64,000 nt of DNA from Hyphomicrobiales bacterium (GTDB taxonomy: Bacteria > Pseudomonadota > Alphaproteobacteria > Rhizobiales > Beijerinckiaceae). The notes below the pieces were generated by a model. It searched no databases. It saw only the letters and a list, made by a program, of their open reading frames with translations, and was not told the origin of the DNA. Positions 21,081 through 60,990 of this stretch are shown in pieces (position 1 is the first letter of the stretch; each line of letters opens with the position of its first letter). The stretch covers positions 1 to 64,000 of the forward strand of contig SEEM01000013.1 of NCBI GenBank assembly GCA_004144595.1, in the 5' to 3' direction. A program made the position numbers and the translations under genes.

Positions 21081-21095
21081 TTAAGTTATGATTAA
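21081..21095. promoter_or_regulatory. Candidate CtrA-type site upstream of SBP gene
   Basis: TTAAGTTATGATTAA, exact TTAA-N7-TTAA, ~120 bp upstream of the ATG at 21218. Confidence 0.35.
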
Positions 21096-25534: not shown

Positions 25535-25738
25535 ATGGCGACCGGAACCGTAAAATGGTTCAACACTGAGAAGGGGTTTGGCTTCATTCAACCGGCGGAC
25601 GGCGGCAAGGATGTGTTCGTGCACATCACAGCCGTGAAAGAGGCCGGCATGATGACGCTGACGGAGGGGCAGAAGGTTTCGTTCGAGCTGAAGACCGAGC
25701 GCGGCAAAACGGCCGCGGGCGATCTGAAGGTGCTCTGA
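25535..25738 (+). CDS. cspA: Cold shock protein (CspA family)
   Basis: [34 protein letters not shown]. Confidence 0.95.
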
Positions 25739-26135
25739 GACCCGTCTTCCGCCTTGAGGCTCGCCGGCCGCGTGCGGCGGGGCGCTGGCGAACGCGCGCC
25801 AAAAATCACGACTGGATCGGCGTTGATGCCGCCTTTCCTGAGCGTTCCCTCTTGACGTGACATGTTGCACCGAAGGCCCTGTCCAGGCCTGGCCCGCGGC
25901 AGGCAGCTCGATCATTTCCGAGGACGCGCGAAGCGCAGGCAGCGCTCACACTCGGTGGCTGCTCGACGATGTCGAAACGATGTCGGACGGCGGCACCTTT
26001 GCTTGCCCGGCTCACCAGCAGCGGTACGGCCGCCCTTCTCCGCGATGTAGAGCCTGCGGCGCGCTAGGATTGCGCACTCCCATGCGCCGGTGAGGCTCAG
26101 AATCCGCCCCAGCAACACCAGCCAGACCAATCTCG

Positions 26136-26150
26136 TTAACGTTCAGTTAA
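26136..26150. promoter_or_regulatory. Candidate CtrA-type site TTAA-N7-TTAA upstream of coiled-coil cluster
   Basis: TTAACGTTCAGTTAA, exact match to the TTAA-N7-TTAA CtrA consensus. Confidence 0.45.
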
Positions 26151-26387
26151 ATTTGAGCTTTTTCTGCTGGACGAAGCGTCGTCCTAATGATACCTATAAG
26201 TTGTTCAAATAAAGAAAATAGAGTTTCGGGTTATCTGCGCGTCGTGTTTCGTTCTCCAAGATTTATCAGCTTGGGTCTCGTTGAGATTTACCGATCTCAA
26301 GATTTTGCAAGTTGGTATTCTCTGGAATGCGATTCGCATCCGCGGCCTCCGGCCTGAACTCATCCAGAACTGGGGTAGTGAGGCGTC

Positions 26388-27881
26388 ATGGCGTGGAAAG
26401 CTTTCCGCAGTGTGCTCTCGGGCGCGCCTTCGCCTCAGGGAGAGCCCGGAGTTGAACCCTCGCGTGGCGCTCAGTCACTATCCAGCCATCAGCCAGCCAA
26501 GCTGGCGCCGAAGCCTCTCGCCCTGGATGCCATCGGTCAGCGCGACGAGGTCGTAAGGCAGCGCATCGGTGCGATGCTGGATCGCCTCGACGATCTGCGC
26601 AGCTTGCGGGACGATTTTTCGTCTATTCTTGAGCCGCTGGTTCAAATCAGCGACGAGTTGCCTCGCTCCAGTATGCGCATCGCCGAGCTGGAGGTCTCTC
26701 TTTCGCAGGAGCGCCAATCCTTCGCGGCGGTTCGGCAGGATCTGGCCGATGCGCTCTCCAAGTCCGGTGTCGTTGCCAACGATCTTTCCGAAGCCCTGGC
26801 CAGAGCGGACAGGGCCGAGAGCGAGCTCATGGATCGCGAGCGCCTGATTGCGGAGCAAGCGATCGCGCTGCGTGACAAGACAATGGCGACCGAAAACCTG
26901 GAGCGTCAGCTTTTCGGCGAGACAGAGCTGGCCAAGGCCCTCGCTAGCGAGAACAAGGCCCTGCGCTTGGAAGCGCAGGCCGCCGATTCAGCGCTTTCGC
27001 GATCGGAGCATGAACTCCTCACCGCACGGGAACGTCTGGGTATTCTCGATCAAGACAGCCGCAAGCTGCAGATCCTGAGCGAGGAACAGAGCCGCCATCT
27101 CTCTGATCTGACCGAGCGCTTCAAGGAAATGGAAGGAACGGCTGAAGCCAGCCGGCACAGGCTGCGCACGGTCGAGGCCGATCTGATCGGCGAGAAAGAA
27201 GCGCGCGAGCGTCTGGAGGCGCAAAACGAGGTCGAGGTCGGCAGTTACAAGACCGAGCGCGCTGCGTTGAGCATGAAGCTTGAAGCAGCCGAGAATCGTG
27301 CTGCGACGAACGATCAGTTGCTTTCTCAGACTCGCAGTCTCCTTCGAGAGAAGGATGAGGCGCATCGGACTGCCGAGCGCAATTTGAAGGAAGCGACCAT
27401 AGCCAGGGCGACGGCCGAGCGCCGCGTCGAAGCCTTGCAGGCGGATCTCGTCCGGCAGACCGAGCGCTTCCAGGAAGCTCAACGCGTCAGGGCCGAGCTC
27501 GATAGCCGTGCCGCCATGCTCAACAAGGCGATGGCAGCAAAGGATTCGGCGCTGGATCAGGCGACGATGCGCAATACGGGCTTGACCGATCGCATCGCCG
27601 AGCTGACGCGCAAACATGAGGCGACCCGCGCCGAACTCGAGATCGGCAACCGGCGGCTGGCCGAGGATCTCGAGAACGAGCGTTCGGAAAGAACCCTGTT
27701 GCAGGGCGCTCTCGACATCGCGCGAGAAACGAGGGTCGCCCTCCAGAAACAGCATGAGGCCTTGAAGCGCTCGGGCCGCCATTGGCGCGATGATGCGAAG
27801 GCCGAGATCGATCACGAAGCCGAGCAAGCTGGCGATAGCAGCAATGTCCGGCCGTTTGCAGCACCTGCCAAGCCCGTTTGA
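26388..27881 (+). CDS. Large coiled-coil protein (IF-like/CCRP candidate)
   Basis: ~350-residue continuous heptad-like E/A/L/R/Q-rich region with short non-coil N- and C-termini; no recognisable enzymatic motif. Confidence 0.75.
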   Translation: MAWKAFRSVLSGAPSPQGEPGVEPSRGAQSLSSHQPAKLAPKPLALDAIGQRDEVVRQRIGAMLDRLDDLRSLRDDFSSILEPLVQISDELPRSSMRIAELEVSLSQERQSFAAVRQDLADALSKSGVVANDLSEALARADRAESELMDRERLIAEQAIALRDKTMATENLERQLFGETELAKALASENKALRLEAQAADSALSRSEHELLTARERLGILDQDSRKLQILSEEQSRHLSDLTERFKEMEGTAEASRHRLRTVEADLIGEKEARERLEAQNEVEVGSYKTERAALSMKLEAAENRAATNDQLLSQTRSLLREKDEAHRTAERNLKEATIARATAERRVEALQADLVRQTERFQEAQRVRAELDSRAAMLNKAMAAKDSALDQATMRNTGLTDRIAELTRKHEATRAELEIGNRRLAEDLENERSERTLLQGALDIARETRVALQKQHEALKRSGRHWRDDAKAEIDHEAEQAGDSSNVRPFAAPAKPV

Positions 27882-27932
27882 CCATAGAAATCGCTTTCCC
27901 GGGAGAGCTTTCTCGAAAGCCAGGATGAAACC

Positions 27933-28430
27933 GTGACCGATCAAGCGCTCAAAGGTATCGCCGCGTTCGTTCCCGCTCTGAACGCCCACGCGGCCCGCCA
28001 ACGTCAGCTTTCCCCGCTTCCTCTCAGCGAAAAGGTCGTTTCGTTGGCGCTCCCGATTGTCGAACAGCCTGTCGCGCAAGCAGATGTGCCCGTTACGCGA
28101 GACTGGGCTGCGGCGCTCGAGCTTGTTCGAGAGGCAAGCGAGGCGATCCGTGTCGGCGAAGAACGGGCCAGCCAGCTCGAGCAGCATCTGGCGGACGTTC
28201 TCACGGAGGCGAATGCCGAGATCAAGCGCCTCACCGACCTCATCTCAGCCGGCGAGAACAAGTTGGCCCAGTCCGAGGCGAAAGCGAGCGCAGCGGAGAC
28301 GCGGGCAGTGGAAGCCGAAGCATGGCTGAGCAAGCTGCATGACGCCGTCGTCGCTTCCTTTGCTCCTATGCTCGGTAAAAGCGAAGAACTGCAGCCCGAC
28401 GATATCCAGGCCAGTTCGGTGCAGAACTAG
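27933..28430 (+). CDS. Small coiled-coil protein
   Basis: GTG start; coiled coil ending AKASAAETRAVEAEAWLSKLHDAVVASFAPML. Confidence 0.65.
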   Translation: MTDQALKGIAAFVPALNAHAARQRQLSPLPLSEKVVSLALPIVEQPVAQADVPVTRDWAAALELVREASEAIRVGEERASQLEQHLADVLTEANAEIKRLTDLISAGENKLAQSEAKASAAETRAVEAEAWLSKLHDAVVASFAPMLGKSEELQPDDIQASSVQN

Positions 28431-28549
28431 ATCGTCGCGAATCTGCTGGGCTGGGGGGCCGGGCTTGATTGTGGCGTGACGTTGGAAAGGCAGCTTTCCG
28501 GTATTCCGATCGCCGCTTCGAGCATCTCGATTTGGGTCTCACAGATAAC

Positions 28550-29029
28550 ATGAACGAACCCATGCGATATCCGATGCTGGTCGCCCCAACAGCGGCTTCT
28601 GCCGAAAAGACGCTCCACCGCGCAGCACAGCTCCAGAAGGATGCCGGCTTTCATTCGACGCTCGTTTGCGTCGAGCGAGCGGCAGAGATGATCAGGACGC
28701 TGCAAAACGAAAACGAGCTTGCCAGGCGCCAGATTGCGGCGCTTCGGGAGCAACTTTCCCAAGAAAAGCAGGACAGCCAAAAAGAGGCTGACAAACTGAA
28801 TGCGCTTGTCGGAAGTTGGCACGATCGGGCCAAGGCTGCAGAGAAGGCCAATGTTGAAGCAAGTGCTCTTGCCGTGGCCGCAATTGCGCAATGCGAGGAA
28901 TTGGCTGCGCATGAGCTTGAGCTAAGGGGGCAGTTGAAACAGGCTGAATCACGGGCGGTCGAGGCAGAGAATTACCTTACAGGGTTGCAGAACGCGATCG
29001 AGTTCGAGCTTTCAAGCGTCTTGCCGTGA
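28550..29029 (+). CDS. Small coiled-coil protein, paralogue-like to preceding gene
   Basis: MNEPMRYPMLVAPTAASAEKTLHRAAQ...; C-terminus KQAESRAVEAENYLTGLQNAIEFELSSVLP resembles the preceding ORF. Start chosen at ATG 28550. Confidence 0.65.
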   Translation: MNEPMRYPMLVAPTAASAEKTLHRAAQLQKDAGFHSTLVCVERAAEMIRTLQNENELARRQIAALREQLSQEKQDSQKEADKLNALVGSWHDRAKAAEKANVEASALAVAAIAQCEELAAHELELRGQLKQAESRAVEAENYLTGLQNAIEFELSSVLP

Positions 29030-29511
29030 AGCCGGCCATGAACTCCGAAGATCTTGAGGCCGCCGACAAGGAAGGCGGGCCCCATTCCGGGGATGTTGCA
29101 TTATTTGCGCGGTTCGCGGAGTTGGTTTCGAACGCTTCGCATCCGCCGTCACCGACTGGCGACCAAGCGCGAGTCGTCACCCAGAAATGGGAGAGTTCCC
29201 TCAGATTCATCAAAGACGTCGGAGAGCGCCTGCGCGAGTCTCAGAGGCGCTCCGAACAGGTGACCAGCGACGCCTACGAAATTGCTCGCAAAGCCATTTT
29301 AGCGATGCAGGAAGAAAGGGAGCGCGCAAATCACGCCGAGACGGCAGCGGCGGATGCGATGGCGAGAGCGAACGCTGCGGAAAGCGAAGTGCAGGCTTTG
29401 AGGCGCCAGCTGGAGCAAGGCGATGCCCCGCCGAGCGAGATCGATCACTGGCTTCGCGAAGCGCATGCCCGGCTTCTATTGGTGCGCCGTGACGCAACCG
29501 AGCATCGATAG
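29026..29511 (+). CDS. Small coiled-coil protein
   Basis: GTGA 4-bp overlap with upstream gene (alternative ATG at 29038); AAADAMARANAAESEVQALRRQLEQGD. Confidence 0.6.
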   Translation: MKPAMNSEDLEAADKEGGPHSGDVALFARFAELVSNASHPPSPTGDQARVVTQKWESSLRFIKDVGERLRESQRRSEQVTSDAYEIARKAILAMQEERERANHAETAAADAMARANAAESEVQALRRQLEQGDAPPSEIDHWLREAHARLLLVRRDATEHR

Positions 29512-29701
29512 CAACGATTACCTTTTAGCGTCGTCTCATGCCCCGAAGAGCCTGGGCATTATCGAATTGCCTAGCAGCAAGTGCGGCAGGCATGGCCCAT
29601 CCGACCCGGTTTCGCCGAACTCTCTCTTTTCCTGAGGGGAGACGGAAGGAACCTCTGTCCTATCTTCCGCACGACAATCCGCTTGCACGAACGGTGTATT
29701 C

Positions 29702-29723
29702 GATATAAAGATATCTTTATATC
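29702..29723. promoter_or_regulatory. Perfect 22-bp palindrome, candidate operator of the ArsR-MT regulator
   Basis: GATATAAAGATATCTTTATATC equals its own reverse complement; sits immediately upstream of the ArsR-methyltransferase gene. Confidence 0.65.
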
Positions 29724-29753
29724 TTTTTCCGTGTGGGCAGAGGGCGCGAACCG

Positions 29754-30767
29754 GTGCGGCAGCCGACAACATTGTCTTCCGATGTGCTTCTCGCAGGCTT
29801 GCGTGCGGCCGGCGAGGAGACGCGGCTGCGCATTCTCGCCCTGCTCTCCGAAGGCGAGCTCTCGGTCTCCGACCTGACCGACATCCTCGGCCAATCGCAG
29901 CCGCGCATCTCGCGCCATCTCAAGCTTCTCGCCGAGGCCGGGCTGGTCAGGCGTTCGCGTGAGGGCGCCTGGGCCTTCTTCCGGCTCGACGAAACCGGGC
30001 CGGGCGGGGCCTTCGCCGCCTCGCTGGCCGCCTGGCTCGACCTGAGCGATCCGGTGCTCGCTGCCGACCGGGAGAGGCTCGCCGCTGTTCGCACGACGCG
30101 GGCGGAGGCTGCGCAGAATTATTTCGCCAGCGTCGCGCGGGACTGGGACCGGTTGCGCGGACTGCATGTGCCCGATCATGCGGTCGAGGCCGCGGTCGAG
30201 GAGGCCGTCGGCGAGGGCTCGCCCGGAGCGATGCTCGATCTCGGCACCGGAACGGGGCGGATGCTGGAGCGGATCGCGCCGAAATTCGGCCGCGCCGTCG
30301 GCGTCGATGCCAATCACGCGATGCTGGCGGTGGCCCGCGCCAATCTGGAGCAGGCGGGGCTTTCCCGCGTCGAACTCCGGCAGGGCGACATCTATGCGCT
30401 GCCCTTCGCGCGCGGCACCTTCGATCTCGTCGTCATCCATCAAGTCCTGCATTTCCTCGACGATCCCGGACGAGCCGTGCGCGAGGCCGCCGCGATGCTG
30501 GCGCGCGAAGGTCGCTTGATCGTCGTCGATTTCGCGCCGCACGACATGGAATTTCTGCGAACCGAGCATGCGCATCGCCGGCTGGGCTTCTCCCGCCAGC
30601 AGATTGCCGCCTGGTTCTCCGAAGCGGGCCTGTCCTGCGACATCTCCCGCGAAGTCACCCTTGCCGATGGCGGCTCGGGCCAGCTCCCGGTCATGCTCTG
30701 GCGTGGCCGCGACCGGCGCGTCCAGGCCGATCCGCCGGTCCGCACGATCAATCTCGAGGTTGCGTGA
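29754..30767 (+). CDS. ArsR-family HTH fused to SAM-dependent methyltransferase domain
   Basis: EETRLRILALLSEGELSVSDLTDILGQSQPRISRHLKLLAEAGLVRRSREG HTH; MLDLGTGTGRMLERIAPKFGRAVGVDANHAML methyltransferase motif. Start GTG at 29754 or 29733 uncertain. Confidence 0.85.
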   Translation: MRQPTTLSSDVLLAGLRAAGEETRLRILALLSEGELSVSDLTDILGQSQPRISRHLKLLAEAGLVRRSREGAWAFFRLDETGPGGAFAASLAAWLDLSDPVLAADRERLAAVRTTRAEAAQNYFASVARDWDRLRGLHVPDHAVEAAVEEAVGEGSPGAMLDLGTGTGRMLERIAPKFGRAVGVDANHAMLAVARANLEQAGLSRVELRQGDIYALPFARGTFDLVVIHQVLHFLDDPGRAVREAAAMLAREGRLIVVDFAPHDMEFLRTEHAHRRLGFSRQQIAAWFSEAGLSCDISREVTLADGGSGQLPVMLWRGRDRRVQADPPVRTINLEVA

Positions 30768-60975: not shown

Positions 60976-60990
60976 TTAACCCCGCGTTAA
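60976..60990. promoter_or_regulatory. Candidate CtrA site TTAA-N7-TTAA upstream of ddlB-ftsQ-ftsA
   Basis: TTAACCCCGCGTTAACC exact match, followed by an additional TTAACCATGGTTAACC palindrome. Confidence 0.6.

Follow-up and report, generated by a model that had tools for sequence, protein, structure and literature searches.

A crescentin gene with co-inherited small coiled-coil genes: a candidate filament operon in Bosea and its relatives

Crescentin (CreS) of Caulobacter crescentus is a filament protein that gives the cells their bend, and we know of no dedicated partner that is encoded beside it; fusions of CreS to GFP are reported to be non-functional. Its attachment to the membrane is thought to need another, unidentified component, and both the membrane attachment and the action of the filament on wall growth are regarded as open questions (PMC10873595). 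According to PMC12700997, crescentin-like proteins have already been published in 13 families of Hyphomicrobiales, the relatives carrying CreS are curved, and creS from Chelatococcus reniformis restores curvature in a C. crescentus delta-creS background.

We analyzed a stretch of 64,000 nucleotides (the window) from a Hyphomicrobiales bacterium (GenBank assembly GCA_004144595.1, contig SEEM01000013.1, positions 1 to 64,000), assigned here to Bosea, in which the original prediction had placed four consecutive same-strand genes encoding proteins that are almost entirely coiled coil. The four plus-strand genes, here called creS, S1, S2, and S3, are present as predicted (Table 1), including the GTGA by which the reading frames of S2 and S3 overlap; a TTG at 28469 is a possible alternative start for S2, and the invariant Met5 is one for S3. 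Their coiled-coil nature is borne out by a hydrophobic periodicity of 3.50–3.55 residues, reached by 0 of 1000 shuffles for the large protein and by 0.1–0.8% of the shuffles for the small ones, and by AlphaFold, which predicts helices for the large and the 165-aa proteins. The lower GC content that had been noted relative to the neighbors also holds (GC3 of 0.61–0.72 vs. 0.82–0.89 in four neighboring genes), as does the AT-rich character of the region ahead of creS (47% GC over 26100–26387). All four genes are real and under purifying selection: when they are compared with their counterparts in Bosea G012, dN/dS is 0.10 for creS, 0.15 for S1, 0.23 for S2, and 0.17 for S3 (MetF, 0.09). The search of Rfam gave no match, nor did a sigma-70-type promoter pattern match within 25700–29800.

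Table 1. Coordinates of the cluster and associated features in the window
Feature	Position	Strand	Description
Inserted segment	25900-29594		3695 bp; relative to near-empty site in Bosea G021
CtrA-type box TTAA-N7-TTAA	26136-26150		Exact match, 252 bp upstream of creS; putative function
creS	26388-27881	+	497 aa; head 1-47, rod 48-463, tail 464-497 (PF19220, PDB crescentin profile, AF2)
S1	27933-28430	+	165 aa, GTG start; disordered N-tail with motif EKVVSL, then 93-residue helix; unnamed family
S2	28550-29029	+	159 aa, coiled coil; ATG start
S3	29026-29511	+	161 aa, coiled coil; GTG start

The cluster is flanked by csp and arsR-metF-metH, and the cassette of this strain is a cleanly inserted segment with csp on one side and arsR-metF on the other. 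Bosea G021 has an ArsR-methyltransferase 97% identical to that of the window, and there 111 bp separate the two flanks, which match the window up to position 25899 and again from 29595 (L158). Two further Bosea genomes hold other DNA at this place (L159, 1186–2267, in G018; L160, 5993–8229, in G029), and therefore the slot between csp and arsR-metF is variable. No integration machinery, recombinase, or convincing flanking repeats were seen within 25700–29800. The genes could be imagined as remnants of a phage tail, i.e., a tape measure with its chaperones, and a published tree does group crescentin-like proteins with alphaproteobacterial tape-measure proteins, with low support (PMC12700997). 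However, no relative was recovered from 2.9 million viral contigs, 50,697 phage records, and 72,556 plasmids, and the large protein has no PHROG match, so that a phage, virus, or plasmid origin was rejected; the neighboring csp and arsR-metF-metH genes and the purifying selection also argue against a phage tail, which retains next to no probability. Homology to a well-characterized family, with a phage tape measure as an example, had been named as grounds for abandoning the idea of an undescribed system; the tape measure was not found, but the large protein does match such a family, namely crescentin.

On sequence evidence, the large protein, CreS, is a full-length crescentin homologue, as had been guessed from its layout, and adds a member to a family that is already known. 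It matches the Pfam model PF19220 (Rod_CreS) over profile positions 1–359 of 359 with 394.8 bits (E = 4.7e-118), nearly 395 bits against a curated cut-off of 100, and among 14 control genomes the strict PF19220 threshold was passed by Caulobacter only. Profile comparison, using eight Hyphomicrobiales proteins and no Caulobacter sequence, aligned CreS with the solved Caulobacter crescentin at E = 1.7e-27, collinearly and with no net gaps (40–459 vs. 23–442, 420 positions each), while the next-best coiled coil in the same search of solved structures scored 0.016. A phmmer alignment of CreS with the solved crescentin was likewise printed without gaps, and the sequence AIGQR at its start is common to both. 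The AlphaFold (AF2) model agrees with the anticipated arrangement of head, long rod, and tail, with a disordered head, helices at 48–266 and 280–463, and a disordered tail, and a start resembling MxWxxFRxVLSG is conserved in several CreS members. Further, when the heptad register is modeled, it shifts by 3 near residue 427, the shift that a four-residue stutter would give (the crescentin stutter at 406–409 would map to 417–420); the jump is kept at penalties up to 2.5 and gone at 3.0, and as a crescentin-like stutter it is suggestive, not firm. Foldseek searches with the predicted models of CreS and S1 returned no usable match, which is expected for long helices. Since the main component is crescentin by both the curated model and the profile comparison with a solved structure, the idea of a cytoskeleton without ties to known families is refuted for the large protein, and the lack of family matches for S1, S2, and S3 leaves it only a very slight chance. 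What had been proposed as an undescribed system is thus not so for CreS, given the published Hyphomicrobiales proteins (PMC12700997), and stands for the small proteins, which are unnamed in the libraries searched.

Neither Pfam nor NCBIfam held a family matching S1, S2, or S3; across 18 members of the S1 family there were 0 NCBIfam matches, and two Pfam families each matched a single member at about 1e-4. AlphaFold predicts for S1 a disordered N-terminal tail and one 93-residue helix (58–150, pLDDT mostly 95–98), in which the positions invariant in 18 sequences include A121, E122, R124, A125, A128, E129, W131, L132, H136, and F143. In 22 of 28 sequences, ten of them from close relatives, the tail carries a motif, [DE][KR][VI]xx[FL], that lies 21–46 residues ahead of the helix; shuffled sequences would give 0.12. 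Profile comparison relates S3 to S1 (90.5%) and S2 to the gene that stands third in the g28/G301 cassettes (94.7%), whereas S1 and S2 reach 35% and S3 and S2m, a small gene of the short-rod cassettes described below, show none, all of these scores being inflated by coiled-coil composition; a common origin of S1, S2, and S3 as paralogues is thus supported in part only. The suggestion that the small genes encode accessory rod components was a good guess for proteins unnamed in these libraries, and the evidence from co-inheritance and adjacency concerns S1.

Comparison with relatives establishes that creS and S1 are adjacent and co-inherited, and that the cluster, whose conservation had been put forward as a check, is kept in relatives but is accessory and patchy rather than universal. 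Of 253 genomes assigned to the same GTDB family as the host, 59 pass the CreS cut-off and 31 carry S1, and in 14 of those genomes, representing 8 genera, creS is immediately followed by S1 on the same strand. Together with G012, G085, and G301, this gives 17 loci with S1 directly 3' of creS, spread over 8 genera of the Bosea family and one genome of another family (G301); an 18th (L259) is cut by a contig end. The two genes are spaced by 3–107 nt or overlap by 4 nt (L234, L236, and L239), and an additional S1-like gene lies upstream of creS in L232–L235, L237, and L259. The complete order CreS-S1-S2-S3 is kept in Bosea G012 and G085, in the latter at another site, so that S2 is the third and S3 the fourth gene in all three full-length Bosea cassettes; in G262, G381, and G301, the gene after CreS-S1 also encodes a small coiled-coil protein, but a different one. 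Individual loci show a tandem pair of crescentin genes, the first of 846 aa (L243, 3551–7715, G921), and a creS split into two ORFs by an intervening stop, with S1 intact downstream (L238, 4261–5763, G882). Some genomes have S1-like genes without a neighboring rod (G365, G441, g447, and others), for example as two tandem genes with no rod nearby at L116 8458–9505 (G365), and as a lone gene with no adjoining rod at L117 8311–8826 (G441, of another family), where an exact TTAA-N7-TTAA box is found 69 bp upstream.

In a tree of 31 CreS proteins, all 16 S1-linked ones fall inside one 100/100 clade of 20, whose four S1-less members come from Microvirga and from genus g438, grouped with Microvirga in the tree, and the S1 label requires 2 changes on the tree vs. 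10.6 with shuffled labels. The CreS and S1 distance matrices are correlated (r = 0.794; 0 of 5000 permutations reached this value), and shared species history accounts for part of this correlation. Within Bosea, S1 is present in 14 of 67 genomes, exactly those with a crescentin-type rod (3 full-length and 11 short), and is absent from the other 53; weak PF19220 matches in G021, G078, and G082, which lack S1, were taken as non-specific coiled coil. Because it is co-inherited with the crescentin gene across several genera, S1 is probably a working partner of the shape-determining filament. Alternatively, CreS alone might be the functional filament, with S1–S3 as co-inherited passengers that have an unrelated cytoplasmic role. 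Such passengers would fit the rod-less S1-like genes and the eight lineages, Microvirga among them, that have CreS but no S1, and Microvirga, which keeps creS without S1, argues against an essential role of S1. In addition, creS of Ch. reniformis alone suffices to bend C. crescentus (PMC12700997), and therefore S proteins are not strictly required there. However, passengers would not be expected to show start/stop overlaps of S1 with creS in some loci, adjacency kept in 8 genera with correlated divergence, and no Bosea genome with S1 but without a rod (14 and 14 of 67), and we consider this alternative unlikely.

Full-length CreS is found in only 3 of the 67 Bosea genomes. Another 11 carry a rod of about 250–300 aa that aligns to 166 C-terminal positions of CreS (hhalign E = 1.5e-11), in a cassette ordered as short rod, S1 (overlapping the rod end in several), S2m, and a second rod of 372–410 aa with a basic start (L119 8256–11444 in Bosea G010, also L118 and L120–L127; conserved basic N-terminus of the second rod, MIGASLRRLIGG). 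The second rod is present in all 11 short-rod genomes, although G031 has it in partial form and G084 with a frameshift, and three more genomes carry it as well (G074, G076, and G088); the G084 gene (L120, 10312–11544) matches in two frames, and the frameshift suggests decay or a sequencing error. The truncated rod together with the second rod would offer a natural experiment on the roles of the rod parts. It is also unlike a plain curvature filament to have a short rod covering the C-terminal 166 positions and a separate rod of 372 aa in 11 Bosea genomes, which would suit a CreS-type filament that does not serve to curve the cell but, for instance, stiffens the envelope or acts as a scaffold at the pole or stalk. 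However, CreS-bearing relatives are curved and one CreS restores curvature (PMC12700997), so that a non-curvature use seems improbable as well. A bolder reading, in which S1 would be the obligate native partner of one crescentin lineage (e.g., the missing attachment or assembly factor) and the short rod with the second rod would form a previously undescribed split, multi-subunit intermediate filament-like cytoskeleton, is possible but doubtful.

The sequence TTAA-N7-TTAA is the CtrA consensus, and exact copies number 3 in the window vs. 0.02 expected, and 21 in the 4.95-Mb genome vs. 11 for a reversed control. The box upstream of creS recurs in G012 (at −254) and in G085 (at −270, with a different spacer), and it is confined to the three full-length Bosea cassettes (3 of about 30 creS loci) and one distant S1. 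CtrA control as a general feature of creS was therefore rejected, and since most other creS loci lack the box, it is at best a Bosea feature, through which the cassette might come under cell-cycle control. The other two copies in the window lie just upstream of ddl-ftsQ in a division and cell-wall cluster (60976–60990) and upstream of a gene for a family 5 solute-binding protein (21081–21095).

Taken together, the cluster is probably an operon for a crescentin filament, in which the small coiled-coil proteins would be filament-binding partners from an accessory family not described before. In this model, CreS would most likely dimerize as a parallel coiled coil, and the dimers would build a stable, non-polar filament beneath the inner membrane; the disordered, partly basic head of CreS would attach the filament, directly or via a partner. 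The filament would then slow wall growth on one side and produce a curved cell; filament formation and curvature are known for relatives and are carried over here from the family, so that curvature would be expected in the window's strain. Our literature search found no report on the morphology of the CreS-positive Bosea strains. S1, S2, and S3 would be short coiled-coil satellites, probably on the same transcript as creS, whose most likely role is to bind the filament and modulate how it assembles or attaches to the membrane, with S1 perhaps docking via the conserved motif in its disordered tail. Binding of S1 to CreS is suggested by gene order and co-inheritance. A family of small proteins whose gene has been passed on in one operon with creS across several genera provides a concrete, testable candidate for a crescentin partner.

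FilP, Scy, and TipN are bacterial cytoskeletal proteins with a long coiled coil and a structural role, as would be expected of this cluster; neither family searches nor solved-structure searches with CreS recovered them, and only crescentin was found. The crescentin-like proteins of Hyphomicrobiales are of the same order and have the same Pfam domain, and the CreS of the window belongs to this group, for which the available part of PMC12700997 makes no mention of partner genes or of a short-rod variant. Caulobacter crescentin (8AFL/8AFM, PF19220) is alike in having a head, a rod that aligns gap-free, a stutter-like jump near the same place, a short tail, and no enzymatic domain. By contrast, the head sequences are unlike, and the tail of the window's CreS is about 34 disordered residues long, compared with 13 aa predicted for crescentin. 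Further, the window's creS is followed by three small coiled-coil genes, unlike Caulobacter crescentin as compared here. Crescentin itself is already known; the new part is the operon with its unnamed partner family, together with the split-rod form in Bosea.
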